Source of the DNA: Yoonia sp. BS5-3
GTDB lineage: Bacteria; Pseudomonadota; Alphaproteobacteria; Rhodobacterales; Rhodobacteraceae
Assembly (NCBI RefSeq): GCF_038069655.2
Contig: NZ_CP150951.2
Location: forward strand, 3,188,001-3,252,000
Length of the DNA: 64,000 nt
Direction: 5' to 3'
Made by a program: the position numbers and the translations under genes. Positions 1,940 to 18,893 of this stretch are shown here, in pieces. Each line of letters begins with the position of its first letter. The first letter of the stretch is position 1. Under the pieces are notes generated by a model. That model did no database searches, had not been told where the DNA came from, and was given only the letters and a program-made list of their open reading frames with translations.

Positions 1940-2296
1940 AACCTTCCACGCAATACCATACTAGGTGTCTTGTTGATGATCGCAGGCTGTGTGATTGGAC
2001 GTGTGTTTCACACGGCTCGCCCAGCGGTTGTCTCAGAACGCAAAGGATCAAAGTTACACAGACCTCCAAACTGATGCGCCGTGTCTTGTCGGACCTTTCA
2101 AACGTCAAACTGACGGCGCGACACAAAGACGAGCAATGAAGAGCAGACATTGGACCAACTGGCAGCATCCTACACTTTGGGCCCAAACCAGCCATTAGGC
2201 TCAGGACCCATTAATCGGCTTGATGCTGAATCGTTGCTGTGATGCAGCATCCCCAAATATTTGGGGGTATGATGAGCAATCTGTAATGGCTGAGTG

Positions 2297-2465
2297 CAGC
2301 AAATTCATCAAATACGAAAAGCGTCGCTACAAGCACCGCAATCGCATCGAGAGAATGTTCGGTCGCCTCAAAGACTGGCGACGCATTTCAATCCGTTATG
2401 ACAGCTGCTCCAAGGTTTTCTTGACAGCCATCGCTCTCGCCGCAACCATCATATTCTGGTTATGA
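2297..2465 (+). mobile_element. IS5-family transposase tail (remnant)
   Basis: The reading Lys-Tyr-Glu-Lys-Arg-Arg-Tyr through RIERMFGRLKDWRRI and ALAATIIFWL-stop is the C-terminal end of an IS5/IS427-group DDE transposase, including the E of the catalytic triad region. The rest of the transposase is missing upstream. A homologous tail lies in the opposite orientation at 7991-8178, on the far side of the peptide cluster. Confidence 0.8.
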
Positions 2466-2575
2466 ATGTGGAGCCTAACAATCAAATTGGACCACTCACG
2501 TGGGGCTGATCAACACGTTGTATCCAACTTGTCCGGCGGAAGACTGCCCAAAACACCTTAAACGGGTCTTCGGAA

Positions 2576-2603
2576 TTGACCAGGCGCCTTTCGCTTGTAT
2601 CGT
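2576..2603 (+). promoter_or_regulatory. Candidate sigma-70 promoter of the peptide cluster
   Basis: TTGACC (2576-2581) and TATCGT (2598-2603) are separated by 16 bases. They lie about 95 bases upstream of the peptide ATG at 2697, in the gap between the IS remnant and the cluster. The match is fair, and no other equally good pair was seen in this gap. Confidence 0.35.
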
Positions 2604-2696
2604 AGTCCACGGCAGCTAAAGCAAATTAAGCCATTTGTGCTTTACACGTCCTAGCTGTCAGAAAGCCAAATGGCTAGTTCAGAAAAAGGAACGGAA

Positions 2697-2861
2697 ATGA
2701 ACACTTCAAGCAAGTCGCAGGATCTCGAAATGGCATCTCCTTCTACTGAGAAGCCGTATCCAAGCACATTGGAAATGGCATCTCCTTCTACTGAGAAGCC
2801 GTATCCAAGCACATTGGAAATGGCATCTCCTTCTACTGAGAAGCCATATCCAGTTCGCTAA
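2697..2861 (+). CDS. Three-repeat peptide, putative RiPP-like multicore precursor
   Basis: The product is 54 residues. A nine-residue head (MNTSSKSQD) is followed by three copies of the 15-residue unit LEMASPSTEKPYPST. The last copy ends Pro-Val-Arg instead of Pro-Ser-Thr. ATG 2697 was chosen because AAGGA lies six bases upstream; an ATG at 2670 would give an 18-residue head but has a poorer ribosome site. Each unit carries one Tyr flanked by prolines (Pro-Tyr-Pro) plus Ser-Pro-Ser-Thr. These are plausible targets for the sulfotransferases and the prolyl-hydroxylase-like enzyme encoded directly downstream. No membrane segment or Cys is present. The repeats, the size and the position in front of modifying enzymes and an exporter suggest a ribosomally made, modified peptide. 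That is inference: no known precursor family was recognised. Confidence 0.7.
   Translation: MNTSSKSQDLEMASPSTEKPYPSTLEMASPSTEKPYPSTLEMASPSTEKPYPVR
2724..2858 (+). repeat. Three tandem 45-bp repeats
   Basis: Units lie at 2724-2768, 2769-2813 and 2814-2858. Units 1 and 2 differ only in the first codon (CTC versus TTG). Unit 3 differs from unit 2 by one silent change (CCG to CCA) and its last two codons. The repeats are in frame and encode the repeated part of the peptide at 2697. Confidence 0.95.
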
Positions 2862-2888
2862 CTAATCATTCGAAATAGAAGCAAATAG

Positions 2889-2919
2889 CGCAGGGGCACA
2901 TTCCAATGTAGTGCCTGCG
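2889..2919 (+). promoter_or_regulatory. Hairpin between peptide gene and enzyme genes
   Basis: CGCAGG (2889-2894) pairs with CCTGCG (2914-2919), and CAC (2897-2899) with GTG (2911-2913), with a two-base bulge and an 11-base loop. It lies just after the peptide gene and before the sulfotransferase. No T-run follows, so it could be an mRNA-stabilising or partial-termination hairpin that lets the peptide be made in excess of the enzymes. Confidence 0.45.
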
Positions 2920-2952
2920 TGCTAACATCAGATTCTGGGTGGTAGTCCATCT

Positions 2953-4536
2953 ATGTCGTCGACCAAACATCCAGCAACCACACAAACATGTTATAGTTCT
3001 GAAAAGTTAGTCTGCCTTGCCGCTGACGTTCCCGAGGGAATAGGAATATTCAAACAGCACATCAACAATGACGTAACAGATATTGTAGCGGCAGACGAAG
3101 TTGCAAAGATTCTAACAAAATGTGGACAATATGCTCAAGCAATAGAATACTATCTATATTCATTGGAGCAGAAACCGGACTGTTCCGTACGGCTTGAACT
3201 GCTAGCCGCAGCACATGAGAGAACAGGTGATTACATCGCAGCAGTCATTGCGAGACAGGCGATCATAAGAGTCAACCCACGCTGTCGCGCAGCATACCAC
3301 AATTTGGCGCGGTTACTAATCCGCCAAGGTCGCAGCGACGACGCTCTGAAGGTATTTCAAGAGCTTCAAGAAGTTTGTAAAGATCTTGTTGGTGCGTTAC
3401 TTGGACGTGTAGTAGTTCACCGGGCTCTGGGCCAAACCCCAACAGCAACGAGCCTTTTGCGAGATGTTCTCTCAATCGATCCAGAAAATATCGACGCACT
3501 AGATGCACTGGCGGAGCTTTCCGGATCACCTTCAGAAAAAAGACGGCTCACTAATAAGATGGAGGAACTTTGGAACGACAAATATACGTCACCTGATGCC
3601 AAGATCGTTTTGGGCTACGGTCTGGGACGAATTGCTGAGGAAGAATCCGAGCATAGTTTGGCAATGACCTACTTCAAAAAAACGAACCTATTGCAAATCG
3701 CGCAGTGCGGTTTGGACAACCACTCCCACATGGATGACTACGTCAAGGAAACTATTGAAGTATTTGGATCGAAAAAAATGGCTATTTCAGAAATAGCCGA
3801 CCAAGGTCAAATGACACCAATCTTTATTCTGGGAATGCCACGATCTGGAACTACCCTAGTCGAGCAAATTTTTTCGAAACATTCAGAAGTTTGCGCTGGT
3901 GGTGAGCAGACGCATATGTTTGATTTAGTTGAACAAATAATGCGGAGAGCGAAGAGTGAAGAAACTTCCTATCCTAGATGTCTTATGAGTTACGGTAGTG
4001 ACGAATTTTCGAGTATAGGAAAGACGTTCATAAATAGAGCCGGTAGAACCGCTTCAGCCAGGGCGTTTACCGACAAGCTACCCCATAATTTCCTTAACAT
4101 TGGCCTTATTGCTCTGACATTGCCGCAAGCACGGATAATTCATGTTCGGCGAAACCCTTTGGATACCTGTCTATCGATATTCAAGAACAATTTTTCTACA
4201 TTTCATAGCTACGCCCGCGACTTGAGAGCTCTTGGGAAGTACTATAGGGCCTATCAGCAGTTGATGGATTTTTGGACGACACGGTTTCCTGCTCGGTTGC
4301 ATCTCATTGAATACGAAGAGCTAGTCAAGCGACCAATGGAAGTCGTATCAAACGCTCTCCGGTTTTGCGGCTTGGAATGGGAAGACCAATGCCTACACTA
4401 CGCAAACAGTCCGCGAATGGCCAGAACTCTGAGTGTAAATCAGGTTCGTCAGCCGTTGAATGGAAATTCAGTTGGCATCTGGCGGAATTACAAACAACAA
4501 CTCGTTGCGCTGATTGATGAGTTGCCAGACAAATGA
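2953..4536 (+). CDS. TPR-repeat sulfotransferase
   Basis: The product has 527 residues. Roughly residues 50-240 form TPR-like helical repeats (AIEYYLYSLEQKPD, AVIARQAIIRVNP, SLLRDVLSIDPENIDAL). Roughly residues 285-525 form a sulfotransferase domain. The PAPS 5'-phosphosulfate loop GMPRSGTTL is near residues 294-302, the acidic AGGEQTH motif sits about 20 residues later, and the 3'-phosphate motif RRNPLDTCLS is near residue 400. The C-terminal RQPL ... WRNY motif is typical of TPR-sulfotransferases (Sulfotransfer_3). This family is distantly related to protein-tyrosine sulfotransferases, and the GGE motif corresponds to the acidic catalytic region. The enzyme is expected to transfer sulfate from PAPS, and the TPR part could bind the peptide. 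Given the Pro-Tyr-Pro in each upstream repeat, tyrosine sulfation is the natural hypothesis. The upstream spacer is 91 bases. Base composition is AT-richer than flanking genes. Confidence 0.85.
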   Translation: MSSTKHPATTQTCYSSEKLVCLAADVPEGIGIFKQHINNDVTDIVAADEVAKILTKCGQYAQAIEYYLYSLEQKPDCSVRLELLAAAHERTGDYIAAVIARQAIIRVNPRCRAAYHNLARLLIRQGRSDDALKVFQELQEVCKDLVGALLGRVVVHRALGQTPTATSLLRDVLSIDPENIDALDALAELSGSPSEKRRLTNKMEELWNDKYTSPDAKIVLGYGLGRIAEEESEHSLAMTYFKKTNLLQIAQCGLDNHSHMDDYVKETIEVFGSKKMAISEIADQGQMTPIFILGMPRSGTTLVEQIFSKHSEVCAGGEQTHMFDLVEQIMRRAKSEETSYPRCLMSYGSDEFSSIGKTFINRAGRTASARAFTDKLPHNFLNIGLIALTLPQARIIHVRRNPLDTCLSIFKNNFSTFHSYARDLRALGKYYRAYQQLMDFWTTRFPARLHLIEYEELVKRPMEVVSNALRFCGLEWEDQCLHYANSPRMARTLSVNQVRQPLNGNSVGIWRNYKQQLVALIDELPDK

Positions 4537-4589
4537 AAAATATCGGTTAGACCGGATTCTCGATTGAACTTTAATATGAGGCGAGCAAT

Positions 4590-5273
4590 ATGATTGATGA
4601 TTGGATTTCGTCAGAACATACTGGACTTGAAGAGAGGAATTATTACCGTCAAGTGTTCGCCAATGGGGACCATTTACCCTTGAGAATTCCGAATGTCCTA
4701 AGGTCAGATAAGGTGGATATTTTGAACGATTTCTTCGAACATGATGCAATTTGGGCAGAATCCGACTTGGCTCTGAGAGGAAAAGGTTTCGTCTCGAGGC
4801 AAGAGTGGGAAGAAGCGTCCGAGAGTGAACGTTTGTCTGCAATCAAGAGCTTGGATTCAGAGCAGATAGAGAACTTCGGCCCCAGCAGAGATATCTTCTT
4901 TGAGTTTATCAATGCTATAAAGTTCGACAGATCGATATATGATTGGTTTGTAGATGTGAGCGGGCTCCCTCTCGTTCCGGTGCCTAGTATCTCTGCTAAA
5001 GCAATGGGGGCGAACGATTTTCTTGGTCCACATAATGATCGAACCGAAAACCGGAGACTTGCATATATCTTCTACTTTTCGCGTGACTGGCAAGCCAAAT
5101 TTGGGGGCAGTCTTGAGTTTCGATCAGGAGAAAAAACGTCAAGCTTAGCATGCGAACATAACAGTCTGGTGATATTCGACGTTCTTGCAGATCAGATCCA
5201 TTGGATAAGCCCAGTCCATGAAATCGCCAAGTCCAGGTTGAGATATACAGTCGGTGGTTGGTTTGACGCTTAG
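4590..5273 (+). CDS. Prolyl-hydroxylase-like 2OG-Fe(II) oxygenase
   Basis: The product has 227 residues. The C-terminal half is a double-stranded beta-helix oxygenase. The iron ligands are His-Asn-Asp (HxD) near residues 148-150 and the distal His in QIHWISPV near 204. The 2-oxoglutarate Arg is in SRLRYTVGGW near 215-217. The segment FGGSLEFR after the HxD strand is characteristic of the prolyl 4-hydroxylase-like group (2OG-FeII_Oxy_3). GAGG eight bases before the ATG supports the start. By context it would hydroxylate the repeat peptide, most simply one of the three prolines per unit. Hydroxylation of a free amino acid cannot be excluded. Confidence 0.85.
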   Translation: MIDDWISSEHTGLEERNYYRQVFANGDHLPLRIPNVLRSDKVDILNDFFEHDAIWAESDLALRGKGFVSRQEWEEASESERLSAIKSLDSEQIENFGPSRDIFFEFINAIKFDRSIYDWFVDVSGLPLVPVPSISAKAMGANDFLGPHNDRTENRRLAYIFYFSRDWQAKFGGSLEFRSGEKTSSLACEHNSLVIFDVLADQIHWISPVHEIAKSRLRYTVGGWFDA

Positions 5274-5422
5274 CCCGAGAAAAGTACCGTTGAAACCGGA
5301 TATAACTGCCTTCTACCAACTACACAGTTCGAAAAAATGCTAGACTTTCTCATGTCTAGCGAAATCATGGCACTCTGATGCAGGCTATAATTGACACCAA
5401 CTTCGAAATACGGTGGTAAGCG

Positions 5423-6454
5423 ATGACAATGACTATGAGCATTTTTGACGACCCTATGCAATATGTGAGGTCCTTTGATTGGCAAAATCAGAAGGTTGAT
5501 GTGGTTCCAATGAACCGAGAAAAATACTCAGAATCTACCTTTCTTGACCGTCGAACACTTGGCCTTGACGTTCCGAAAAGCGCATCTCTCGCTAGACTAC
5601 TACAGGAATACCACCAATTGGACTTGCCGTCGCCAAAGCTTGGCTTTATTTTTCATACCGCATTTTGCGGATCCACATTGTTGAGCCGCTGTTTGGACCT
5701 CCCAGGGTATAGTATGGTATACAAGGAGCCGTTGACACTTCATCAGGTTGCCTTCGCTAAGCGGTACGAAGGCCCTTCGGACTTATTTGGAGATACGTCG
5801 GAGTGCCTAAGTGTAGCTTTGACGTTGTTAGGCAAAAACTTCACCCAACATGAAACAATCCTTATAAAACCGTCGGACTCTTGTGCAAATATTGCACGGG
5901 AAATGCTGTCTGGACATGAGAAATCAGCAGCTATATTTTTGTTTGCCACACTTGACGACTTTTGCGTCTCGATGTTGAAATACAGTTTCCGCCGTGAGTT
6001 TCTTCATAAGATGCTTGATCGTTCGAGGTTCGACTTGAATAACTCTGGCCACAAAATAGGCAATGGCAACATAGAGAATGATGCGCAGGCGGCAGCAGTG
6101 GTATGGTTGGCGTTGATCATTCAATTTGATGATATTTTGAAGGACAGAAGCTTAAATGCGCGTTCATTGAACAAGAAGGACTTCTTCAGAAACCCCGAAA
6201 ATGCGCTGGATGCAGCAGCTCAGCTATTTGGAGTAAGTATGTCGCCTGAACAAATTGAAAGAGCTACAACATCAGGGCCCTTTAAGCGGCATTCGAAGAA
6301 CCCTGGAGCAGCGTTCGATCACGATAGTTACTTCAAAACAGTTGCAAAACAACGGGCATCGCTAGATGATGAAATACAAGAGGCCCGAAACTGGATTCGT
6401 GACATCGCACCGCGATACTCAGAAATTGGTAGTTTGGCTAGACCACTGATCTAG
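5423..6454 (+). CDS. Second sulfotransferase-like protein
   Basis: The product has 343 residues. Near residues 76-90 the segment FIFHTAFCGSTLLSRCLD has the shape of a PAPS-binding loop. It is the variant seen in a proteobacterial sulfotransferase-like family (FHTAFCxSTLL) rather than the usual PRSGTT. A following YKEPL resembles the acidic substrate-side motif. The later 3'-phosphate-binding Arg/Ser motif is not obvious to me, so sulfate transfer is inferred. A second ATG four codons in is possible. The gene lies 149 bases after the oxygenase and two bases before the transporter frame. It probably modifies the same peptide at another residue, or acts as a partner of the first sulfotransferase. 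Confidence 0.65.
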   Translation: MTMTMSIFDDPMQYVRSFDWQNQKVDVVPMNREKYSESTFLDRRTLGLDVPKSASLARLLQEYHQLDLPSPKLGFIFHTAFCGSTLLSRCLDLPGYSMVYKEPLTLHQVAFAKRYEGPSDLFGDTSECLSVALTLLGKNFTQHETILIKPSDSCANIAREMLSGHEKSAAIFLFATLDDFCVSMLKYSFRREFLHKMLDRSRFDLNNSGHKIGNGNIENDAQAAAVVWLALIIQFDDILKDRSLNARSLNKKDFFRNPENALDAAAQLFGVSMSPEQIERATTSGPFKRHSKNPGAAFDHDSYFKTVAKQRASLDDEIQEARNWIRDIAPRYSEIGSLARPLI

Positions 6455-6510
6455 AATTGGCATGCGGCGAAGTTACATTATCTAATTCGATAAGTGAGTG
6501 CGACCTTAGC

Positions 6511-7812
6511 ATGCATGAACCTTCTGGAAACCTATCTTCTATTTCTTCGAATCGATTGGTCCAAGAAGCTCGGCTAGCGAGTAGGTCAAATTTGGTGATC
6601 CAAATTTACATTGTTCTATTCATTTCGGTAGGGCCAGTTGCACAGATTTTCTATTCCGAAGGTTTAGGATTTACAGCTTCTAATTTCATGACGCTATCTG
6701 TACTATTGATACTTGGTAGTTTTTCTATTCTGGCTGGTCCAAATCTCATATCAAAATATGGCGCAAGTTCTGTTATAAACAAGGGTTACTTTCTTCGCTT
6801 CTTTTTGGTATTTTTGCTTCTTATTTCTCTTACTGTGTTCCAAGGTGAATTTTTAATTTTGAGTACGATTTTTCTCATACTTCTATTGTCCATTTTGCAT
6901 CATGTTGCCTTTACCATTGGTTGGTTTCCTCTCGTTCGAGTGATAGTTCATAAGTCACAATTGGGCGCCTTTTTTGGGGAAACTCGACGGCTAGCCGGTA
7001 TGGTTAAGAACACTATCAGCGTCATTATGGTTGTTTTGGCAATCGGTGGTGTTTCAACATTTGATTTTATGACAGTTTTTGCGATTGTTGGACTGCTTCT
7101 TTTGTATAGCGCGTTTAAAATGAAGAAGATATTTGCAACTGTGAGTGACGCAGTGATAGCAGAGAAGCTAGGAAGTCCTCCCACCATTAATGACTATCGA
7201 AATGTAGTGTCCGCAAAACAGAACCGCTACTTCTTTGGCGTTGTATTTTCTGCGAAGCTCTTTGGAATTGCAATGTTACCTGTATTTCTAGTTGGTCATC
7301 TTGACGTAAGCCCAGCCTTTGTGATGTCATGCTTCATTTTGTTCCAGTCGATAGGATCCCTGCTGGCGCCGACGATTGGCAAACTGGTAGACGTGCGGGG
7401 TCCAAGAGAAGTTTTTCGCGTTGTTGGCTTGGTCAATTTCGTCCCAGTAACGTTAGTTATTTTAGCGTTGTCAGTTGTGGAGACCGTTGATACCGGGCAC
7501 TTTGAAGTGTTGCTGATTTCAAGTATCGCAATTGCTCTGCAAGTTTTTCTATTTCAAATGGTAACGATGGCCGTCGCCGTCGTGTCCTTTACATTTGGTG
7601 AAGGGACAGAGGCAGTTGCTCGATATTGTATGACTGCATTTGTAACGATGGGCGCCGACTTTCTCAAATTATTCATCGGTGGAGTTGCGTTGATTACATC
7701 AGATTACTTCTTCGGTGCAGGGCATGCGATCAGCGGTTTTGGAACCATATCTATTTTGATGGTTTTTGTTACCTATGCCTTGAATCGATATTGTGTTCTG
7801 CGATTAGAATGA
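6511..7812 (+). CDS. MFS-like multi-span transporter
   Basis: The product has 433 residues from ATG 6511; a TTG at 6457 would add 18 polar residues. Neither start has a strong ribosome site. About twelve hydrophobic helices are visible. A central cytoplasmic loop carries many basic residues (FKMKKIF ... VVSAKQNRYFF). The second half has GKLVDVRGPREVFRVVG, a typical MFS loop 8-9 motif. It follows the sulfotransferase-like gene within a few bases. By position it is the best candidate for export of the modified peptide, although MFS proteins more often carry small molecules. Its TGA overlaps the ATG of the next small reading frame. Confidence 0.75.
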   Translation: MHEPSGNLSSISSNRLVQEARLASRSNLVIQIYIVLFISVGPVAQIFYSEGLGFTASNFMTLSVLLILGSFSILAGPNLISKYGASSVINKGYFLRFFLVFLLLISLTVFQGEFLILSTIFLILLLSILHHVAFTIGWFPLVRVIVHKSQLGAFFGETRRLAGMVKNTISVIMVVLAIGGVSTFDFMTVFAIVGLLLLYSAFKMKKIFATVSDAVIAEKLGSPPTINDYRNVVSAKQNRYFFGVVFSAKLFGIAMLPVFLVGHLDVSPAFVMSCFILFQSIGSLLAPTIGKLVDVRGPREVFRVVGLVNFVPVTLVILALSVVETVDTGHFEVLLISSIAIALQVFLFQMVTMAVAVVSFTFGEGTEAVARYCMTAFVTMGADFLKLFIGGVALITSDYFFGAGHAISGFGTISILMVFVTYALNRYCVLRLE

Positions 7813-7946
7813 GTGCGGAAGCCGTTCTGCTTCATTCCATGTCAGTGGGGAAGGTAGCGAAAGCACTTATAGACCTTGGCGCAAGCCATGATCTTCTTAA
7901 GAGATCTCAATTTGCTCCTGCGAACTATTTTGTTGTATTGACCTGA
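7809..7946 (+). CDS. Small translationally coupled reading frame, 45 residues
   Basis: The ATG at 7809 overlaps the TGA of the transporter (ATGA). The reading encodes 45 residues (MSAEAVLLHSMSVGKVAKAL...) ending at 7946, 44 bases before an IS5 remnant. It may be a genuine sixth cluster gene or the intact beginning of a gene whose remainder was lost when the IS arrived. It shows no similarity to the peptide precursor and no known motif. Confidence 0.4.
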   Translation: MSAEAVLLHSMSVGKVAKALIDLGASHDLLKRSQFAPANYFVVLT

Positions 7947-7990
7947 ATAGCCCCTAGTATTGCAGACGATTTCTTCCCTCGGCTCTAGGC

Positions 7991-8178
7991 TCATAGCCAG
8001 AATATGATGGTTGCGGCGAGAGCGATGGCTGACAAGAAAACCTTGCAGCAGCTGTCATAACGGATTGAAATGCGTCGCCCGTCTTTGAGGCGACAGAACA
8101 TTCTTTCGATGCGATTGTGGCGTTTGTAGCGACCCTTGTCGTATTTGATGGTCTTGCTGCGTGACGTACGGCCAGGGA
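7991..8178 (-). mobile_element. IS5-family transposase tail (remnant, inverted)
   Basis: On the minus strand the reading KTIKYDKGRYKRHNRIERMF ends in ATIIFWL-stop. It is the same C-terminal transposase tail as at 2297-2465 and a little closer to the family consensus (CIPGRTSRSKTIKYDK). The N-terminal part of the transposase is missing. Together the two tails form an inverted pair around the peptide cluster. Confidence 0.8.
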
Positions 8179-8205
8179 TGCAGGGCGTGAAACGCGGCAA
8201 GCGGC

Positions 8206-8670
8206 TTGGCCAGCCTCCAGCGCAGACAGCCGCACAAATATAGCACGCGAAGGATGCCATATTGGCAAATCGAGAAACGGTTTCCGGAATGGCGGAGATA
8301 CTTGGGGCAGGGGGAAGAAGACGATGGTGAACACTGGAGGGCGCTCGAAGAACGGTTCCTACGGAATGTGTGGCCAGTACAAAAGGTCGCACGCACGCCA
8401 CAAAACTCAGCCCGCTTGATCGAACTTACATTCTCAAACGAAGAAACCTTCATGGCCATTTCGGAAGCGATCCTTCCGCTTCTTAGCCCAATTGAACGTG
8501 ACCACATAATGTTGCCTGCTATCCGGCGTGGCGAAGGGAGCATTGCCGATAAGCACCCGGAGCGCGTGCTTAATATCCTGTACTTGGCCCTTCCCGAAAA
8601 TCCGAATTGGTGGCCTTATGAAATAGATGCAGCTTTAGAGCGTATTGCCGATGCAAACCCGTCCCATTGA
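8206..8670 (+). pseudogene. C-terminal remnant of a large unrecognised protein
   Basis: The frame opens directly at the IS5 remnant and encodes a well-formed protein segment (FPEWRRYLGQGEEDDGEHWRAL, then SPIERDHIMLPAIRRG, then NPNWWPYEIDAALERI). There is no start-site context and it begins in mobile-element DNA. The pattern of acidic, Trp-rich segments recalls the extreme C-termini of very large bacterial defence-type proteins. I cannot name the family, and the N-terminal part is absent from the window. Confidence 0.4.
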
Positions 8671-9533
8671 GTGGATCTTAGATTGGTCGAGTTAACCAGG
8701 AAGTGGAATTCAAGGTGATTGCCCGCTGGATGTCCGCATTGGGGACCCACACCGCAGCCTAGTAAATTTCGACGAACCGCGGGATTGGGCCGAGAGGTCA
8801 AACCTGGCGCATGGCCCGAGCAGTGGGGTAGGTGCCAACAACTACTTTGGCCTCGCGACAATTGGATACCACTATGGTTATTGGTTTTGAAAAGCCGACT
8901 TAGTGTTCTGAACACGCCAGCGCAAATGCTCAGGAAATTACGGCGTGTCCATTCTGCGCTTTCTCTGAGGCGCTAGACTTGCCAGCAGATGCTGTGCAAT
9001 TAGGTTTTCACCGTATGACGCGTTTAAATCGTTTAAATTGCCGGAAGTCTTATGTGGTTTATACTAAAGGGGAAGGAGTCCCATTAATTCAGTCCTATTA
9101 TTTAAGGTTTCCGACAACAATAACGAAAGGTAATGTTGCAACCAAGTAGAAATGTCACTCGATCTGCAAGGCAGAAATGTCACCAAGAACGCTGACGGTA
9201 GCAAAGCCTGACAGGGCTGACACCTCACATATCGCTGCACTGGCTGGCTTTGCGGGGGCAGGGAGAGCGGACGTTTGCAACCAAAGCAGCGGACGTCTCG
9301 AGTGAGCCCTTTTTACCGGATGCTGCGCGCCGTACGAATTTCAACTCTTTAGAAAGACTGCCAAAGACGTGTCAAAATCAAAGGCAGTTTTGCCAAGAGT
9401 TTGTGGCTTAAGGTTTTTCACTGTTGCGGGTGACCCTGCCGTGAGTGACAAAAACGAGCACTTGTGGCGCGGCACCTTAAGGTGTGGCATGCGGCACTTT
9501 GCCGAATTCCGCAGTAGTTAGATAGGCGTCCGT
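8671..9533. other. Gene-poor debris
   Basis: No intact gene is seen. The stretch contains the second copy of the dispersed repeat (9064-9120). It also holds two nearby copies of AGAAATGTCAC (about 9142 and 9170), which resemble sequence next to the ISNCY transposase start at 22630 and may mark a lost element end. Confidence 0.45.
9064..9120 (+). repeat. Dispersed repeat, copy 2
   Basis: CTAAAGGGGAAGGAGTC through TTCCGACAACAA matches 1117-1172 with scattered substitutions and one small indel, in direct orientation about 7.9 kb away. Confidence 0.6.
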
Positions 9534-9758
9534 TTAGCGTAAAATTTGTGCTTCGTTCACCCATAGCAGGGTATCTTTTGCGCGGCTTACAATTTCCAGT
9601 TCGATACACCTGTCAAATGATAAGAAGTTATCCAAAAAGGTTAAATTTTGCAGCTCTTTAGATAAAATATGGTACCTCAATTCGCCATCCGAAATCGCAT
9701 GACCACTGTGTTTTGCATATTCTTCGAAAAACGCAATTGAGCAGTCTTGCTGTTTGTC
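9534..9758 (-). pseudogene. C-terminal remnant of a gene cut by the IS3 element
   Basis: On the minus strand 74 sense codons run from the exact IS3 boundary to a TAA (TTA at 9534-9536). The reading includes CSIAFFEEYAKHSG and LRYHILSKELQNL. Its smooth, AT-leaning coding character and abrupt start at the IS end show it is the tail of an interrupted gene. Product unknown. Confidence 0.45.
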
Positions 9759-9833
9759 TTGTCCGTCGTCAGGGATTTTGGGACAGATGGCTGCCTAACC
9801 TAAGAGAGGGTCTGGCGCATCTGGCTGTCGTGA

Positions 9834-10814
9834 TTATGCGGCGGATTTGCGGTGAAGCAAGCGTCGCGTTTCGATGGTCTTTCGCTTGATCCTTTCTCGT
9901 TGTTTCAAAATAGTCTCCCCGCGCCCGAAGTAGACATCGGCAGGCGTGAGGTTCTGCAGGCCTTCGTGATAACGCCGGTGGTTGTAGTGATCGACAAAGG
10001 CATCGATCTGTTGTCTGAGATCACCGGGCAGGTAGTAGTTTTCAAGCAGAATGCGGTTCTTTAGCGTTTGATGCCACCTTTCGATCTTGCCCTGGGTTTG
10101 CGGGTGATATGGCGCACCTCGAACATGATCCATCTTCTGATCTTCCAGCCAATCAGCCAGTTCGCCCGAGATGTAGCTCGACCCGTTGTCACTGAGCAGG
10201 CGCGGCTTGTGCAGCACCGTCGCCTGATCGCAGCCCGAAGCCTGCAGCGCGAGGTCGAGCGTATCGGTCACATCTTCGGCCTTCATCGTTGTGCAGAGCT
10301 TCCAGGCGATGATGTAGCGGCTGTAATCATCGAGGATAGTGCTGAGATAGAACCAGCCCCATCCGATGACCTTCAGATATGTGAAGTCGGTTTGCCATAG
10401 CTCGTTGGGACGCGTTGTCTTTTCTTTGAACTCGTCGGCGGCTGACAGAACCACATAGGCCGGGCTGGTGATCAGATCATAAGACTTGAGGATGCGATAT
10501 ACGGAAGCCTCTGACACAAAATACTTTTCTGTATCAGTAAACTGAACGGCCAACTCGCGCGGAGACAGGTCGCTTTCCTGCAAAGCCAGGTCCCTGATCT
10601 TCTCTCGAATGGGCTCGGGAATGCGGTTCCAGACCCGTGACGGTATCGGACTACGATCGTCAAGCGCCTCGGGGCCACCTGACATATACCGGTCGTACCA
10701 GCGGTAGAAGGTGGTCCTGGGAATCCCCAGCTTGTCCAGGGTTCGCTTGATCGGGAGATGCGAGCCTTCGACCAGGCGAATGATCTCCAGTTTCTCAGAT
10801 GCGGGGTACCTCAT
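9834..10814 (-). CDS. IS3-family transposase OrfB (DDE integrase domain)
   Basis: The product has 326 residues. An N-terminal HTH_21-type segment is followed by an rve integrase core. The DDE residues are visible in WQTDFTYLK, LLSDNGSSY and QGKIERWHQ, and the tail is the usual PADVYFGRG. Its ATG overlaps the stop of orfA (ATGA), so it may be made by coupling or as a frameshift fusion. It carries out cut-and-join of the element and looks intact. Confidence 0.93.
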   Translation of the reverse strand: MRYPASEKLEIIRLVEGSHLPIKRTLDKLGIPRTTFYRWYDRYMSGGPEALDDRSPIPSRVWNRIPEPIREKIRDLALQESDLSPRELAVQFTDTEKYFVSEASVYRILKSYDLITSPAYVVLSAADEFKEKTTRPNELWQTDFTYLKVIGWGWFYLSTILDDYSRYIIAWKLCTTMKAEDVTDTLDLALQASGCDQATVLHKPRLLSDNGSSYISGELADWLEDQKMDHVRGAPYHPQTQGKIERWHQTLKNRILLENYYLPGDLRQQIDAFVDHYNHRRYHEGLQNLTPADVYFGRGETILKQRERIKRKTIETRRLLHRKSAA

Positions 10815-11185
10815 TCGTCGTCCTCCCCATCCCCGAGCATGCTTTTTTTGAGCAGCCGTAGCTCCAGGGCTTGTTCAGCGACGACCTCTTTCAAATCACG
10901 GGATTCCCGACGAAGGTCTTTGACTTCGGTCGACGTCGCTGCACGGGCCGTGTCGCCAGCCAGACGCTTCTTGCCCGCTTCAAGGAACTCTTTGGACCAG
11001 CTATAATACAGGCTCTGAGCAATGCCCTCTCGACGGCAAAGCTCGGCAATGCTGTCCTCACCCTTAAGGCCGTCCAGCACGATCCTAATCTTCTCTTCGG
11101 CGGAATACTGTTTGCGCGTCGCACGGCGGATGTCTTTGACGACCTTATCACCGTGGCTCTTACGTGTTCCGGGTTTCTGTCTCAT
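10811..11185 (-). CDS. IS3-family transposase OrfA (HTH)
   Basis: The product has 124 residues from the ATG at 11185, which has AAGGAG five bases upstream; a GTG two codons earlier is also possible. RKQYSAEEKIRIVLDGLKGE and the following LCRREGIAQSLYYSW form the HTH_Tnp_1 DNA-binding domain. A C-terminal leucine-zipper-like coil (LRRESRDLKEVVAEQALELR) is present. It acts with OrfB in transposition. Confidence 0.93.
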   Translation of the reverse strand: MRQKPGTRKSHGDKVVKDIRRATRKQYSAEEKIRIVLDGLKGEDSIAELCRREGIAQSLYYSWSKEFLEAGKKRLAGDTARAATSTEVKDLRRESRDLKEVVAEQALELRLLKKSMLGDGEDDE

Positions 11186-11270
11186 CTCCACTCCTTGGTG
11201 GTTACGATGTGCCAGAAACCCTCCCTTATCAAATCGGCCTAAACTGTCCCATAGGCGCTGACGTCAGACA

Positions 11271-11417
11271 GAAACAACGAGAAAGGATCAAGCGAAAGAC
11301 CATCGAAACGCGACGCTTGCTTCACCGCAAATCCGCCGCATAATCACGACAGCCAGATGCGCCAGACCCTCTCTTAGGTTAGGCAGCCATCTGTCCCAAA
11401 ATCCCTGACGACGGACA
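11271..11417 (+). mobile_element. Inverted end fragment of a second IS3 copy
   Basis: Bases 11271-11417 are, as far as I can compare by eye, the exact reverse complement of 9760 to about 9906. They hold the last codons of orfB plus the terminal repeat, in the opposite orientation. The fragment starts directly at the end of the intact IS3 copy and ends with its own terminal repeat next to the ISNCY gene. The intact copy therefore probably inserted into, or recombined with, an older copy. Confidence 0.8.
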
Positions 11418-12130
11418 GGTGCAGGTTTGTCCTGTTCCTCCTTAATGTAGGCGAGAACTGCACCGAGGCGCTTGTTCTCGGTGATAGCTGCATGCGTGAT
11501 CCGGAGCTCGGGGTTGAGGATAGAATGGGGCAGGGCGACGCCATTTGCGCGTACCTGAATGCGTTCGTCAGCCAGCTCATATACATCGACATATTTACCC
11601 ACGAGACCGCGGCTCAGATCGTTCACTTCCAGTTTGATCCGTTTCCGGTCGTACTTGATCGTCAGGTCTTTAGTGACATAGCGTTTGTCACGCAGGCAGA
11701 AGATCTCGGCAAGGCGGTCCGGTTCGACGTTTAGTGCGCAATGCAGGTTGTCAGGTCGTGCGGGAGCCTTTGCAAACTTGGCATTGTAGCGCTCAACGAA
11801 ACCCGCCAGAAACGCGTTTCCGTCATCCATGTTCGAGACGCCAGCGATGCGCAGTTCCTTCACAAGCCGATCCTGAAGTGTCCGGTTTGCGCGTTCGACG
11901 CGGCGTTTGGCCTGGGAACTGTTTGCACACAGTATCTCAATGTTCAGCTCAGCCAAAGCGCGCCCAAACTGGGTCATACCCGTCATGTGCTTGCTTGGCT
12001 TGGCAACCCGAAAGACGGAGTGTTTGTCGCTATAGAATGCAACGGGCCGACCATGTTTGACCAGGTAGCTTTCCAATGCGTCAACATAGGTAAAGGTGCT
12101 CTGCGATACCACGAACCGCAGCTCCATCAA
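11418..12130 (-). pseudogene. ISNCY-type transposase, C-terminal half
   Basis: The reading MELRFVVSQSTFTYVDALES ... YSDKHSVFRV ... ANRTLQDRLVKELR is the C-terminal half of an ISNCY/IS1202-like DDE transposase. It begins exactly at the Tn3-family insertion point. Its N-terminal half, ending DDATSTLM, is at 22155-22639 on the same strand. Joining the two across one copy of the TTGAT duplication restores the frame. The extreme C-terminus was replaced by the IS3 fragment at 11417. Confidence 0.85.
12126..12130 (+). repeat. Target-site duplication (left), ATCAA
   Basis: ATCAA immediately precedes the terminal repeat of the Tn3-family transposon and is repeated at 22155-22159. Five bases is the size typical of this family. 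Confidence 0.9.
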
Positions 12131-12186
12131 GGCCGAACCGCCCCGAACGTGCGCAGATAGGGGTTATCAGGAACAATAGTAGAACA
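12131..12186 (+). repeat. Tn3-family left terminal inverted repeat
   Basis: The end starts GGCCGAACCGCCCCGAACGT and matches the reverse complement of 22099-22154 over about 56 bases, with a handful of substitutions and one indel each way. The 38 bases usual for Tn3 elements are exceeded. The start GGCC differs from the common GGGG. Confidence 0.85.
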
Positions 12187-12251
12187 AGAGAGCGCTTGAC
12201 GGTCTTCTGTTTCCTCCGAACGCTTGGCCTTTTTGGGGAAGGGACAACTGG

Positions 12252-15134
12252 ATGGATCGTGATGCGCTGAATGTGTGGAGCTTGTCGTTTGGCGAGCTGG
12301 ATTTTATTCAGGGATACCGGCACGCAATGCGCGCGGGGTTGGCGCTTCAGTTGGTTCATTTCCGCAGCTACGGGTACTTTCCTGAGGCCGTTGAAGACAT
12401 CACTGACGACCGCATCCAGTATATCGAGGAACAGTTGGGTACCCGTGTCCATCTATACGATCTGCAATCTGATGCTGCCCGCCGTCACCGCCTTGATATC
12501 TTGCGGTATCTGAGGTTTCGCAGGGCGAATGATCGGGATCGCGCGGAACTCCACTCTGTCCTTGTTGAGGAAAGTGACAGATCAGGCCCAGCTATCGACC
12601 CTCTCGTTGAATTCGGTTTTAATTGGGCGTTGCAGAACGGAATATCCGTGCCCTCACGGAAAATCATGGAACGCGCAACCCGCTCTGCGTTGCATGCATT
12701 CCAGGAGCACTTTCTGGCAGAGGTCTCGGGAAAGGTTTCGAAGAAGGCAAGCCCGGCATTGGAAGAATGTCTTGCCGAACCAAGAGGCGTGCATGGTTTT
12801 CTGCGGCTGAAAGATGATGTTGGGGCTGCGACGCTTGATAACATATTGGAGGCTGCAGATCGGCTGGCGTTCATAGAAGGTCTTGATCTCCCTTTTGGTG
12901 CAACAGATCGCGTCGATCCGTCTTGGTTCAAGCACTTTGCGCGCCGCGCTGAAGGCGAAACGGCCTATGAGATGCGCCGTCATGCTGACAAGAAGCGGAT
13001 CGGGTTTCTGGCGCTATATGTAATGTCTCGTAAATCGCAGCTGATTGATGGGTTGGTGGACCTATTGATCTATGTGGTTCACCGGATCGGAACCAGATCC
13101 AGGCGAAAGGTGATCGGTAGGATCGCCGCCGACATCGAGAAGGTACACGGCAAGGAGCGATTGCTGGTCGATATCGCCACGGCTGCGATGCTGACTCCGA
13201 ATGGAAAGGTCTCGGATGTGATTTTTCCTGTTGCGGGCGCTGCGAAACTGAAAGCGATTGTCGACGAACATCGCGAAAAGGGCACGCTGGATGCGCGGAT
13301 CCAGATGGTGATGCGTGGGTCTTGGGCCGGACATTACCGCCGAATGTTGCCGTCGCTACTATCTGTTCTGAAGTTCCATTCAAACAATGAAAGCTGGCGC
13401 CCGATCCTTGATGCCCTGTCTTTGATCACGCGCCTGAACGAGGAAGGGCGGCGCGTCGTTCCAACATCAATCGTCCCCGAGGGGTCTATCCCGCGCAGAT
13501 GGCGTGACACCGTTTTTGATCACCAGGGCCGGTTGAATGTCATTTCCTATGAACTCTGTATCCTGACGCAACTACGAGAGCGTATCCGGGCCAAGGAAAT
13601 CTGGGTCGAAGGCGCGGATCGCTATCGCAATCCGGATGACGATTTACCGAAAGATTTTTCAGAAATGCGCGCGGCTTACTATGCCGGGCTGAAGCTCACT
13701 CAGGATGCGCGGGAATTTTCCAACTTAGTTCGTGAGAAACTGGAATTCGAGCTGCGTGAACTGAATGCAACTTTACGTTCCAATGACCGGGTTCGGCTTC
13801 GATGGTCTGGTGAAAACCGGATTCACGTCACGCCTTTTGCGTCAGCGCCTGAACCGCGTGGCCTCCTTTCATTGAAGGCAGAAATCGGAAGACGATGGCC
13901 GATGACGGGTTTGCTGGATGCGCTGAAGGAGACCGCGCTGGATACTGGGTTTCTCGACGTCTTTGAAACTTCAGCGAGCCGAGAGGCGCTTGATCGCAAA
14001 GTCAGAGACCAGCGTTTGCTTCTGTGTCTCTACGGTCTGGGCACCAATGCCGGTTTGAAGCGGGTGGCCGCCGGGGTGCCCGGAACCAGCTATGATGAAT
14101 TACTGCATATTCGCCGCCTGTATATCGATCCGGCGTCGCTTCGGGCTGCGGCAGCCAAAGTCGCGGATGCCACTTTGGCAGTTCGGAACCCGGCCGTATG
14201 GGGTGAGGCCGGAACCGCATGCGCCGCGGATTCCACCAAATTTGGTGCCTGGGACAGGAACCTGATGACGGAATGGCACGCCCGTTATGGCGGGAGGGGC
14301 GTCATGATCTATTGGCATGTCGAGCGGCAGGCGACATGCATTTATTCCCAGCTGAAACGCTGCTCATCTTCTGAAGTGGCGGCCATGATCGAAGGGGTCT
14401 TGCGCCATTGTACCGACATGGAAATCCAGCGCCAGTATGTTGACAGTCACGGCCAGAGCGCCATTGGTTTCGCCTTATGTCACCTTCTAGGCTTTGAACT
14501 GGCCCCGCGACTTAAGGCCATTGCACGACAAAAGCTGGCTTTAGCGAGTTCTGGGATGCGAGGGCAATTACCCAACTTGCTACCGATCCTGTCTGGTACT
14601 GTTGACTGGTCAGAGATCGAAAGACAGTACGATGAAATGGTCAAGTATGCCGCCGCCATGCAGCACGGCACGGCTGACCCGGAAGCCATTCTGCGTCGTT
14701 TTGCACGCGCCGGTGTGATGCACCCGACCTATAAAGCGCTCGCTGAGTTGGGGCGGGCGATCAAGACCATCTTTCTGTGCCGCTATCTTCGATCCGAAGA
14801 TTTCCGACGCGAGATTCATGAAGGGTTGAATGTGGTCGAGAACTGGAACAGCGCCAATGGCTTTGTATTCTTCGGTAAAGGCGGTGAGATTTCCAGCAAT
14901 CGGATTGCTGATCAGGAAGTCTCAGCTCATGCACTGCACCTGCTTCAAGCCTCACTCGTCTATGTGAACACGCGCATGATGCAATCGGTGCTGGCAGAAC
15001 CGATATGGGCAACCCGGCTGACTGATCGGGACTATAGCGGGCTTTCCCCGCTGATCTATGCTCATATCAATCCGTATGGCCGGTTCGATGTTGATCTGGA
15101 GCGGCGGATTGATTTCGGCACAATGGCAGCGTAA
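12252..15134 (+). CDS. tnpA: Tn3-family transposase TnpA
   Basis: The product has 960 residues, close to the usual 970-1000. The N-terminal DUF4158-type region ([20 protein letters not shown]) precedes the DDE_Tnp_Tn3 domain. Catalytic residues are visible as Asp in [11 protein letters not shown] (near 660), Asp in [10 protein letters not shown] (near 731) and Glu in [10 protein letters not shown] (near 878). The frame is intact and runs from just inside the left repeat. TnpA should bind the terminal repeats and make cointegrates. The ATG at 12252 has GGGAAGGG-like purines upstream, though a longer N-terminus from a non-ATG codon is possible. Confidence 0.95.
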
Positions 15135-15262
15135 TCACTGCGTCACAAAAGGGTACACCTTCAGGAGACATATAGATGTGACAGCATGAAATGTCACAAA
15201 AGGGTGGCGCAGCTGGAATTGTGACAGTATCACGGACACAGCCACCCTAATGTGACAGGTTG
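15135..15262 (+). promoter_or_regulatory. Res-like resolution region
   Basis: Between tnpA and tnpR, TGTGACA/TGTCACA motifs are repeated. One pair, TGTGACA (15177-15183) and TGTCACA (15192-15198), forms an inverted repeat. Single motifs lie at 15220-15226 and 15251-15257. The string GTCACAAAAGGGT occurs twice (15142-15154 and 15193-15205). Such arrays of half-sites are where serine resolvases bind and where the tnpA/tnpR promoters lie. Confidence 0.7.
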
Positions 15263-15265
15263 CAC

Positions 15266-15832
15266 ATGCCCCGGATCTGATATGCCCGCGTCAGCATTTC
15301 AAGCCAAGATCTCGATATTCAGAAAGCTAAGTTGAAGGCGGCGGGTTGCGAGGTCATCCGCTCCGAAACGGTGTCTGGCGCTTCCAGGGATGACCGTTCT
15401 GAACTGGCGACCGTGATGGAATTTTTGCGCGGTGGTGATGAGTTGGTTGTGCATCGACTAGACCGCCTTGGTCGTTCCACTCGTGATGTGTTGAACCTGG
15501 TGCATGAGCTGGATGCCAAAGGCGCATCACTCCGCGTGCTTGAACCGGAAGTCACCACCGCCGGTGACATGGGACGCGTGGTCATCACTGTGCTTGGCAT
15601 GGTGGCAGACATGGAACTAAAGTTCATTCGTGACCGGCAGCGCGCGGGAATTGAGGCAGCGAAGGGCAGGGGCGTTTACAAAGGGCGTCGGAAATCTATT
15701 GATAACGCGGAAATCCGGCAATTGGCTGATGTAGGTGTCGCCAAAGCCAAAATCGCCCGTGACCTGGGGGTTTCCAGAATGACCGTCTACCGGGCGCTGG
15801 CTGAGCCCGAAACCGAAACGGACGTTGATTGA
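15266..15832 (+). pseudogene. tnpR: Serine resolvase TnpR with an in-frame stop at codon 5
   Basis: Read from the ATG at 15266 the frame gives Met-Pro-Arg-Ile-STOP-Tyr-Ala-Arg-Val-Ser. The TGA at 15278 stands where resolvases have Gly (IGYARVS). The remaining 183 codons are open and complete: catalytic Ser in ARVS, Arg residues in HRLDRLGRSTRD, the E helix, and a C-terminal HTH (IRQLADVGVAKAKIARDLGVSR). The total of 188 codons matches the family. No standard start codon lies between the TGA and the catalytic Ser. Protein from the later TTG at 15332 would lack the active Ser. The gene is therefore inactive, unless the base is an assembly error or the TGA is suppressed. Confidence 0.8.
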
Positions 15833-16228
15833 GCATGTGGCGAATGAATCAAAAGAGCCCAACCTGTGAATTCAAGTATCTCGCTGCGCGCGCTCGCAGC
15901 GTAGAGAATGCGGCAGGTGCGCAATCGATGGTGCTGCAATGCGGCATAACAACCGGCCATTCAGCAAAAATATAGCGAGACCATTCTGTTGGACTCACAT
16001 CCTCCAGACAAACTGCGTGGTATCTTGCCGTATCTGCTCAAGTAGGGAACATGCGCGGTTACGGCACAAGCGTCGCAGTGTTGAGGTGATTTTCTCCAAA
16101 GTGGCCGTTCCTTCACTTTAATCGAGACTCGGCGTCGCCGAAGCCGTAGGGTCTTCATCTGAAGCGATGTGATCGTGCGACTATAAAAGTACGTTCATGC
16201 ATCGCTCAATCCCACAGGGAGCCAATTC
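15833..16228. other. About 400 bases without a recognisable gene
   Basis: The stretch lies between tnpR and the BLUF gene. A GC-rich near-palindrome (around 15881-15900) is the only structure noted. No convincing coding frame is seen on either strand. Confidence 0.5.
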
Positions 16229-16645
16229 ATCACAAATCTCATTCAGATCGTTTATGCGTCACAGCCGTTTGGATACGATGAGCCGATACTTGCAGGCATT
16301 TTGCTCGATGCCAGACGCTGCAACAAGCGTGATGACGTGACCGGCGCGTTGGTTTGTCGGCATGACATCTACCTCCAACTACTCGAAGGACTGGAAGATG
16401 CAGTGCGCGCAGCCTATGTACGAATTCGTGGCGATGATCGTCATGCTGAGATCAAAGAACTCCTGAACCACGAGATACAAAGTCGCTTGTTTGCAGATTG
16501 GGCGATGCTTCATGATCCTGCGAAGACTTGGATTTGGACGGAAGAAGAGATCGCAGATGCGGCACTTAATCGCGCAGAACCAGCAGAAATCATAAAAGTA
16601 TTCAAAGACCTGTCGGATCGATCCGGAAAAGCGGCTGTGCATTGA
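16229..16645 (+). CDS. BLUF-domain blue-light sensor, start codon altered
   Basis: The 138-codon frame matches a single-domain BLUF protein. Visible features are the flavin-contacting Tyr in QIVYAS, Asn in RRCNKRDDVTGAL, Gln in IYLQLLEG and Trp in ADWAMLH. The C-terminal helix continues to the stop. The natural start is at 16229, where AGGGAG is seven bases upstream, but the codon is ATC rather than ATG. No ATG, GTG or TTG occurs in frame back to the TAA at 16184. The next usable codon, TTG 16301, would delete the Tyr strand. The protein is therefore made from ATC at low level or not made. No output domain is fused, so if active it would signal through a partner. Confidence 0.7.
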   Translation: MTNLIQIVYASQPFGYDEPILAGILLDARRCNKRDDVTGALVCRHDIYLQLLEGLEDAVRAAYVRIRGDDRHAEIKELLNHEIQSRLFADWAMLHDPAKTWIWTEEEIADAALNRAEPAEIIKVFKDLSDRSGKAAVH

Positions 16646-16691
16646 TGCAAACTTTTGGCGCGTGGGCGCATCCGCGATTTACGGTTTGTAG

Positions 16692-17255
16692 ATGGTGGGT
16701 GGAATGATGGCTGTGCACTCAGTGCCCAATGCGTTTACTACGGGGGAATGCGATCACATCGTTGCGGCAATTTCTAACATCCCCACCTATGACGCGCTGC
16801 TTGCGGGCCGCAATCGGGATCACAATCTGCGTCATGCGGAACTCGTTTGGATGGACGATGTCGGAGACCTAAGCTGGGTGATGACCCGGTTGATTGAGCT
16901 TGTCAGTCATTCCAACAAGCACCAGTTTGATTTCGACGTGCGCGAATTTGCGGAAAGCCCGCAAGTAGCCAAATATGATGCTGCCAAAGGGGGGCATTTT
17001 GCCTGGCACTCTGACATTGGCCATGGTCTCGCGGCTAGTAAGAGAAAGCTCACGCTTGTGCTGCAATTGAGCAATCCGGACACCTACGACGGGGGTGACT
17101 TGGAAATCAGGCCAAGTGCTCAAATCCAAATGGCCAATCGGATGCAGGGATCTGTAAGTGTATTTCCGAGCTTTGCACTGCATCAAGTAACGCCGATCAA
17201 GCGGGGCATTCGGCGTTCACTGACGGTCTGGGCACATGGGCCCCCGTTTCGCTGA
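16692..17255 (+). CDS. PKHD-type 2OG-Fe(II) oxygenase
   Basis: The product has 187 residues from ATG 16692 (ATGs at 16704 and 16707 are alternatives). The iron ligands are His-Ser-Asp in FAWHSDIG near 106-108 and the distal His in ALHQVTPI near 164. The oxoglutarate Arg is in RRSLTVWAHG near 173-175. YDGGDLEI matches the conserved GGxL turn. This resembles PKHD-type and related small hydroxylases. The substrate is unknown. It is not closely similar to the oxygenase at 4590. Confidence 0.8.
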   Translation: MVGGMMAVHSVPNAFTTGECDHIVAAISNIPTYDALLAGRNRDHNLRHAELVWMDDVGDLSWVMTRLIELVSHSNKHQFDFDVREFAESPQVAKYDAAKGGHFAWHSDIGHGLAASKRKLTLVLQLSNPDTYDGGDLEIRPSAQIQMANRMQGSVSVFPSFALHQVTPIKRGIRRSLTVWAHGPPFR

Positions 17256-17596
17256 AGGCGGCGAGAATAGGCCAAAAATGGTAGACCCATCGATGGTGTT
17301 GAGAAAATGGTCAGGTTAGCTAGCATTGTAAATTAGGTGCAAAGCGACTACGTACATTATACAAAGTTGTAGTTTTCTTCGGCAAAGGCGCATCGCCTGC
17401 CAGAGCCAGTTGCAATTATCTATCATTAAAATTCGACTGTCACATGCCGTAACAGGCATCTGACGCTAGGTAGGGAAGGTTGCCGATGTTGTCGTGCACG
17501 AGCATGCGTCGTGTTCTTCCACCTTGGCGGCCAGACTGACCCGCGATTTGCGACCGGGCATAGATTGCGCGTTGTCGATCAAACGATCTCGAAACG
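17256..17596. other. About 340 bases without a recognisable gene
   Basis: No supported gene on either strand. The stretch ends at a strong palindrome (17597-17622). Confidence 0.45.
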
Positions 17597-17622
17597 GCTC
17601 TGACAAAATGTTTTGTCAGAGC
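17597..17622. promoter_or_regulatory. Perfect palindrome, 12-base arms
   Basis: GCTCTGACAAAA and TTTTGTCAGAGC are separated by TG and lie 41 bases before the ATG at 17664. A-run rather than T-run follows on the plus strand, so it is not a terminator for the upstream genes. It looks like a dimeric regulator site for the downstream operon. Confidence 0.5.
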
Positions 17623-17663
17623 AAAAAAAGCGTGGCGGCGCATTCTCCGTCAAAGGATCAAAA

Positions 17664-18017
17664 ATGACTCTTCCTGAATGGACGAAACCCGGCATCTACG
17701 GAGCTTTGGGTGGCGCGATTGCGGTTTCTATCTTGGGCTTCTCTTGGGGCGGCTGGACAACAAGCGGCAGTGCCCAAACCATGGCACAGGACTTGGCTGC
17801 TGAAGAGGTGACTTTGGCGATGGTGCCGGTCTGCCTCAATATGTCAGCGGCTGATCCAGAACGCATAGAGAAGCTCGCAGCTCTACAAGAAGTTTCTGGC
17901 TTTGGTCGTCGCAATGCCCTTATGGAAACAGGCTGGGCGACCCGGCCCGGTACAGATGCGCCAGACCGTGACCTTGCAGATGCTTGCCTCGCGGGGCTTG
18001 AGTTGGATGGATCGTAA
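17664..18017 (+). CDS. Membrane-anchored hypothetical protein
   Basis: The product has 117 residues from the ATG at 17664, which is preceded by AAAGGAT. One N-terminal helix (about residues 10-29, YGALGGAIAVSILGFSWGGW) is followed by a soluble alanine-rich domain with two Cys residues. The pattern PEWTKPGIYGA ... GFSWGGW ... GWATRPG is one I recognise as a conserved alphaproteobacterial hypothetical family, without known function. The next gene's candidate ATG overlaps its end. Confidence 0.7.
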   Translation: MTLPEWTKPGIYGALGGAIAVSILGFSWGGWTTSGSAQTMAQDLAAEEVTLAMVPVCLNMSAADPERIEKLAALQEVSGFGRRNALMETGWATRPGTDAPDRDLADACLAGLELDGS

Positions 18018-18834: not shown

Positions 18835-18893
18835 GCGCGTCGCACCAAAGCGTCCGTTTGAATAGACGGGCTCGCCATCAAAAGGAAAATACG

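Follow-up and report, generated by a model that had tools for sequence, protein, structure and literature searches.

A composite-transposon-like gene cassette of Yoonia sp. BS5-3 that may make and export a sulfated, hydroxylated repeat peptide

Some plant peptide hormones that are sulfated on tyrosine also carry hydroxyproline. Here we describe a block of five genes in the bacterium Yoonia sp. BS5-3, found at 2697-7812 of a 64,000-nucleotide stretch of contig NZ_CP150951.2 (positions 3,188,001 to 3,252,000; hereafter the window, whose numbering we use), which might place both decorations on a small exported peptide. The block encodes a repeat peptide, a tetratricopeptide repeat (TPR) sulfotransferase (ST1), a 2-oxoglutarate (2OG)-Fe(II) oxygenase (OG), a sulfotransferase-fold protein (ST2) and a membrane protein. 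Bacterial genes for tyrosylprotein sulfotransferases (TPSTs) are sparse and often adjoin export genes, according to one account (PMC9372746). The nearest bacterial system is raxX-raxSTAB of Xanthomonas, a cluster for a sulfated RiPP (ribosomally synthesised and post-translationally modified peptide; PMC6637879), with which the cassette shares a small precursor beside a TPST-type sulfotransferase, horizontal spread and export genes; here the peptide and ST1 lie 91 nt apart, the same placing of a TPST-type enzyme beside a precursor. The cassette differs in having an additional sulfotransferase-fold protein, a 2OG oxygenase and a repeat precursor, and in lacking both a double-glycine motif (the peptide's 54 residues contain no glycine) and ATP-binding cassette (ABC) secretion genes (by Pfam, a RaxA/RaxB-type ABC domain is absent from all five cassette proteins). 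Because the double-glycine leader and the ABC secretion genes are missing, the cassette is not a member of raxX-raxSTAB. With plant tyrosine-sulfated hormones such as PSY1 (PMC9372746), it would have in common both modifications, on a secreted peptide that is short and contains proline; it differs in being bacterial and operon-encoded, and its modifications are predicted ones. The features of the cassette are as follows.

2296-2475, plus strand: left arm of a 180-bp inverted repeat, the 3' end of a DDE transposase remnant (PF13586 above its cut-off in 2220-2462)
2697-2861, plus strand: candidate precursor peptide, 54 residues, three LEMASPSTEKPYP(ST) units (open frame and ribosome box; no homologue)
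2727-2852, plus strand: tandem repeat array, 45 bp x 2.8 copies (tandem-repeat scan, 98% matches)
2953-4536, plus strand: ST1, 527 residues, TPR plus sulfotransferase domain, with a loop for 3'-phosphoadenosine-5'-phosphosulfate (PAPS) and a TPST-like glutamate in GGEQT (Pfam, PDB profile)
4590-5273, plus strand: OG, 227 residues, OGFOD1/Tpa1-like 2OG-Fe(II) oxygenase (PF13661)
5423-6454, plus strand: ST2, 343 residues, sulfotransferase-fold protein outside the Pfam families, FHTAFCGSTLL loop and KEP motif (fold and alignment)
6457-7812, plus strand: membrane protein, 451 residues, TTG start, probable exporter with 12 hydrophobic segments and without a family match (hydropathy)
7981-8160, minus strand: right arm of the same repeat, again from a transposase remnant (match to PF13586 in 7994-8401 of the minus strand, under the cut-off)

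The original prediction, made from the letters of the DNA, had described five consecutive plus-strand genes with short gaps, and this is what the block contains, successive frames being separated by 91, 53, 149 and 2 nt. The inverted repeat (180 bp, 90% complementary) encloses all five genes; its arms, which are the ends of DDE transposase remnants, stand 5,505 nt apart. The GC content of the kilobases from 2001 to 8000 is low, at 42-48%, against 51-58% in the first kilobase and in 10001-20000, while the flanking kilobases are at 49% (1001-2000), 53% (8001-9000) and 48% (9001-10000). A search of 35 congeners found ST2 in none of them. The block thus looks like a small composite-transposon-like cassette; its appearance suggests horizontal acquisition, and it may be mobile.

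The enzymes can be placed with differing precision. ST1 matches TPR plus Sulfotransfer_3 (155 bits; cut-off 27) and has the PAPS loop GMPRSGTTL, in agreement with the earlier description of a TPR-sulfotransferase whose loop is intact. By sequence, the nearest solved structures to its catalytic domain are TPSTs, namely human TPST1 and TPST2 (PDB 5wrj, 3ap1) and a tick TPST; aligned to the latter, GMPRSGTTL faces GMPRSGTTL and the GGEQT of ST1 faces GEET, and in contrast to the human enzymes ST1 carries an N-terminal TPR arm. From this kinship we predict that ST1 transfers sulfate to tyrosine. OG matches PF13661 at 58 bits (cut-off 27), and H148, D150, H204 and R218 are intact, as they are in its homologue P0061, so that the claim of an oxygenase with all its iron ligands holds. 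Its best PDB matches are the prolyl hydroxylases OGFOD1 and Tpa1 (PDB 4nhx, 3kt1), from which it differs as a single short protein in a transposon-like cassette, and hydroxylation of peptidyl proline is the activity predicted from that kinship.

ST2 is more distant from anything described. Its frame encodes 343 residues (the database record begins at 5435 and has 339), no Pfam sulfotransferase family appears up to E 10 (the best row is unrelated, E 0.2), and a profile search of the PDB found no relative (best E 0.68, an antibody). Its fold, though, is that of a sulfotransferase, the closest structures being human TPST1 and TPST2 at 8-10% identity; the P-loop is invariant in 17 of 17 alignment rows, and one distant relative, P0019, does carry PF00685. 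Fold and P-loop thus agree with its earlier naming as a second sulfotransferase-like protein, even though a Pfam family match is lacking. With ST1 and ST2 nearest to TPSTs and OG nearest to OGFOD1/Tpa1, it is plausible that the enzymes are directed at protein. The membrane protein shows 12 hydropathy peaks in a simple scan, which fits 12 transmembrane helices, but its earlier assignment to the major facilitator superfamily (MFS) could not be upheld: no MFS family is found among Pfam rows up to E 10 (the best row is unrelated, E 0.83), and there is no match to PDB sequences up to E 10. Nor did 288 other genomes of the host class yield a homologue at E 1e-5, and a single-sequence model (predicted local distance difference test score 47) was too poor for use. 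Searches of viral contigs and plasmids gave no match for ST2 or the membrane protein; OG had no match in viral contigs and two weak ones in plasmids, one of which was opened.

The peptide frame that precedes these genes lies over the most conspicuous repeat of the window. The array at 2727-2852 is by far the strongest tandem repeat in the 64 kb (score 245; the next scores 50), and its in-frame translation is MNTSSKSQDLEMASPSTEKPYPSTLEMASPSTEKPYPSTLEMASPSTEKPYPVR. The frame of three units is as first described, with the refinement that in the DNA copies 1 and 2 are the same and copy 3 is shortened and one synonymous base apart. An AAGGA box stands six bases upstream of the ATG at 2697, a good distance, and the peptide is the only plus-strand frame of at least 40 residues between the left remnant and ST1. 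No second copy was found anywhere in the host genome. When the array is read from the minus strand an open frame also exists, but without operon context, and we rejected it as a candidate.

Whether the enzymes belong together can be judged from other genomes. ST2 relatives were collected regardless of their neighbours, and 32 loci were opened: 16 loci from named genomes, 2 from relatives of the host, and those matched in 5 of 385 genomes of the host class (its own included) and 11 of 369 genomes of the class of Vulcaniibacterium (2 of them already in hand). A 2OG oxygenase match lies within 6 kb of the ST2 relative in 16 of the 32, and a TPR-sulfotransferase match in eight; neither was found in any of 20 control stretches of 13 kb from eight of the same genomes. 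Seeds for the 2OG models came from five ST2 loci (L012, L013, L016, L018, L040), from L034, L035, L036 and L038, and from the two OG proteins; without the seeding loci, 11 of 27 have a 2OG match against 0 of 20 controls (Fisher p 0.001, a guide only, as the loci are partly related, such as L016 with L018 and several Phycisphaerales, and the genomes of the 16 named-genome loci are not represented among the controls). An OG-type match stands within 300 bp of ST2 in L013, L075, L076, L081 and L082, PF13661 being confirmed for the oxygenases of the last four. The oxygenase of L010 is a weak match in an uncertain frame. A TPR-sulfotransferase, a 2OG oxygenase and an ST2 relative all fall within 6 kb at L013 (Vulcaniibacterium), L040, L075, L076 and L081. 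The sulfotransferase/2OG set, minus the peptide and the membrane protein, is therefore a recurring module. At L075, L076, L080 and L081 we also noticed grouped 2OG oxygenase matches, TPR-sulfotransferases and ST2 relatives. Methyltransferases accompany the L075 and L081 groups, and L081 also has a TonB-dependent receptor.

Approached from OG, the link is looser. In a protein search OG had one other homologue, P0061, and ST2 a relative, P0006, both recorded on a contig 83,994 bases long, presumably the same. A search that began from OG gave matches in 7 of 385 genomes of the host class, its own included; the OG-type regions of the six other genomes (L033-L038, one each) have no ST2 match. At 16 of the 32 ST2 loci, including four of the five from Planctomycetota, no 2OG match lies within 6 kb, although the contig sometimes stops close to ST2; both results weigh against a peptide-modifying cassette. 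G273 has a further OG match besides the region opened, and in G359 the ST2 relative sits elsewhere than the OG-first region, 473 bp from another OG-type match (L072). A tree of ST2 relatives was built from 12 database proteins, 24 of the 32 loci and an additional copy from L075, leaving out L007, L008, L011, L015, L021 and L084 as well as L072 and L079, which do have a 2OG match. On it the 2OG label is scattered, with 10 changes against a shuffled mean of 12.5 and 49 of 500 shuffles as low. In L036, by eye, two OG-type frames stand in tandem directly 5' of a tryptophan-halogenase-like frame.

Short repeat peptides beside homologues of the enzymes had been proposed as a check, and three distant loci provide them. 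A tandem-repeat scan of the 32 loci gave a short repeat ORF (open reading frame) inside the gene group in these three; the other 29, judged by eye from the scan rows, have none beside the genes, and a look for short ORFs with KPY or PYP near the first ST2 loci yielded nothing convincing by eye. The three are:

L012:12195-12362, opposite strand to the oxygenase: short repeat ORF rich in Gly/Met and Ala/Pro (repeat scan)
L016:12370-12555, opposite strand to the oxygenase: the same kind of ORF
L018:12326-12502, opposite strand to the oxygenase: the same kind of ORF

Each lies between an oxygenase gene and an ABC exporter gene (confirmed by Pfam in L016 and, in L012 and L018, resembling it in sequence), on the strand opposite to both, and encodes 55-61 residues, a Gly/Met part followed by an Ala/Pro part or, in L012, Ala/Pro repeats flanked by Gly-rich ends. 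Ribosome boxes are clear in L012 and L018 and farther away in L016. The oxygenases match PF13640 with SEC-C in L012 and L016, and by alignment in L018; all three keep H-D-H-R, and the P-loop is preserved in the ST2 relatives beside them. Repeats in themselves are not uncommon, six rows of similar score occurring in 5 of the 20 control stretches, so that the weight of these ORFs lies in their like position and make-up, two of the three loci being close kin. They share with the cassette an ST2 relative, an adjacent 2OG oxygenase, exporter genes and a short proline-rich repeat ORF, but differ in their SEC-C motifs, in an ORF that is on the opposite strand and without tyrosine, in their ABC exporters and in having no TPR-sulfotransferase match within 6 kb. 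With a SEC-C oxygenase and a SEC-C sulfotransferase-fold protein, these clusters are perhaps a peptide system of their own; in the orders of L016 and L012, searches for further SEC-C loci brought back those already in hand and no others (2 of 5 genomes and 1 of 3, respectively). The L018 peptide has five Thr, whereas Ser, Thr and Tyr are all missing from those of L012 and L016; if the latter two are substrates of the ST2 relatives, side-chain sulfate could go only on a hydroxyl made by the oxygenase, and the idea of hydroxyproline sulfate is based on this. Upstream of the L016 and L018 clusters lies one more Gly/Met repeat ORF, a very short one that ends in GGGM, at L016:8412-8507, where it has a ribosome box, and at about 7908-7987 of L018. 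At L010:1695-1738, some 8 kb from the ST2 relative of that Planctomycetota genome, the minus strand also reads as a repeat of Gly-Met type.

Our tentative reading, which we hold with less than even confidence, is that the cassette makes and exports a small peptide bearing sulfate and hydroxyl groups, the repeat peptide being the likely substrate of its enzymes. Around what is directly observed (gene order, domains, folds, the frame of transposase remnants and the recurrence of ST2 with 2OG oxygenases), the pathway might run as follows. The 54-residue precursor would be translated from its own ribosome site; OG, as kin of OGFOD1/Tpa1, would hydroxylate proline of the SPSTEKPYP units, and ST1, as kin of TPSTs, would sulfate the tyrosines while its TPR arm holds the repeats. 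ST2, the regular partner of the oxygenase, would add a second sulfate, perhaps on the new hydroxyl, with PAPS coming from the host's own adenosine-5'-phosphosulfate kinase, whose gene is present, and the 12-helix membrane protein would export the product. Translation of the peptide, its substrate role, the sites of modification, export and the release of the units are what we infer. The original prediction had paired sulfotyrosine with hydroxyproline; sulfation of the hydroxyl made by the oxygenase is an alternative. In its fullest form, which we think unlikely, the ST2 family would consist of unrecognised sulfotransferases that sulfate the hydroxyl made by a partner 2OG oxygenase, giving peptidyl sulfate on hydroxyproline (or another hydroxy-residue), so that in the cassette ST1 would act on tyrosine while OG and ST2 built sulfated hydroxyproline on the repeat peptide.

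If our reading is right, bacteria put both plant growth-hormone decorations on peptides by means of a compact, mobile-looking gene set, a sulfotransferase-fold family not named in Pfam gains a function, a role emerges for groups of 2OG oxygenases, TPR-sulfotransferases and TonB receptors that have lacked an explanation, and sulfated hydroxyproline is perhaps a new chemical group. Searches of open-access papers yielded neither that exact phrase nor a description of the sulfotransferase-2OG module, nor any described bacterial pathway of the kind, as had been claimed; the enzyme combination, however, is not unique to the window, since L013, L040, L075, L076 and L081 hold the same set.

Several findings count against a peptide product. 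The repeat peptide has no relative in a set of 5.8 billion proteins (none with three common 5-residue words), and by eye neither a double-glycine motif nor a signal peptide or protease gene is visible; for the earlier proposal of release as three copies per precursor, no leader or protease can be seen. Typical TPST sites are strongly acidic, which the tyrosine context EKPYP is not. The presumed exporter gave no family match, and OG also weakly matches two NCBIfam families of peptide or other 2OG enzymes, far short of the threshold (18.6 bits where 150 are needed). Relatives of ST1 on plasmids point elsewhere: in the eight of 49 records that were opened, three lie near autotransporters (L044, L045, L047), two near TonB receptors (L046, L050) and three near unrelated genes, and none has a 2OG match. 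Since these relatives adjoin autotransporters and TonB receptors, large surface proteins are possible targets of ST1-type enzymes. The main rival, less probable to us than a peptide product and on balance rather unlikely, is accordingly that the enzymes modify a large surface protein such as a TonB-dependent receptor or an autotransporter, the target having been lost from the cassette or never part of it and the repeat array being incidental. TonB-dependent receptors also occur about 5 kb or less from the ST2 relatives of L013, L014, L081 and L083; the cassette itself, though, has no such gene, the repeat peptide, which has a ribosome site of its own, is its sole plus-strand frame of at least 40 residues ahead of ST1, and the membrane protein begins two bases past ST2. 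The records with autotransporters are plasmids of Pacificitalea, Thalassospira and Lelliottia, and that the passengers are sulfated there is a simple guess.

Glycans are the substrate of many sulfotransferases, and glycosyltransferase-like and other polysaccharide-like frames, named by eye, lie at about 22.7-52 kb of the window, so that the enzymes might instead act on an exopolysaccharide or small molecule, most obviously the polymer of those genes. We regard this as improbable: TPSTs are the nearest solved structures for both sulfotransferases, the TPR arm and the OGFOD1/Tpa1-like oxygenase suggest protein targets, and about 14 kb with several transposase-like frames intervene before those genes, the cassette appearing to have been acquired separately. 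It is also conceivable, at a chance we put lower still, that the 54-residue frame codes for nothing and is a minisatellite of the operon leader, the genes that matter being the four after it. Of the six frames of the repeat unit four are open, which is also the most frequent count among 5000 45-mers from the window, and one antisense frame across the array is open as well; for these reasons the openness of the frame says little for its translation. The array copies are too alike to reveal selection, and the frame has no homologue for comparison. Against a minisatellite stand the period divisible by three, the good ribosome site at the start of the frame, the sole base change between copies, which is synonymous (one change, and so weak), and the short repeat ORFs found at distant ST2/2OG loci too.

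To the right of the cassette, the window holds more transposase-like frames at 9834-12130 (IS3/IS481-like by eye), and those at 9834 and 11288 have a C-terminal segment in common.

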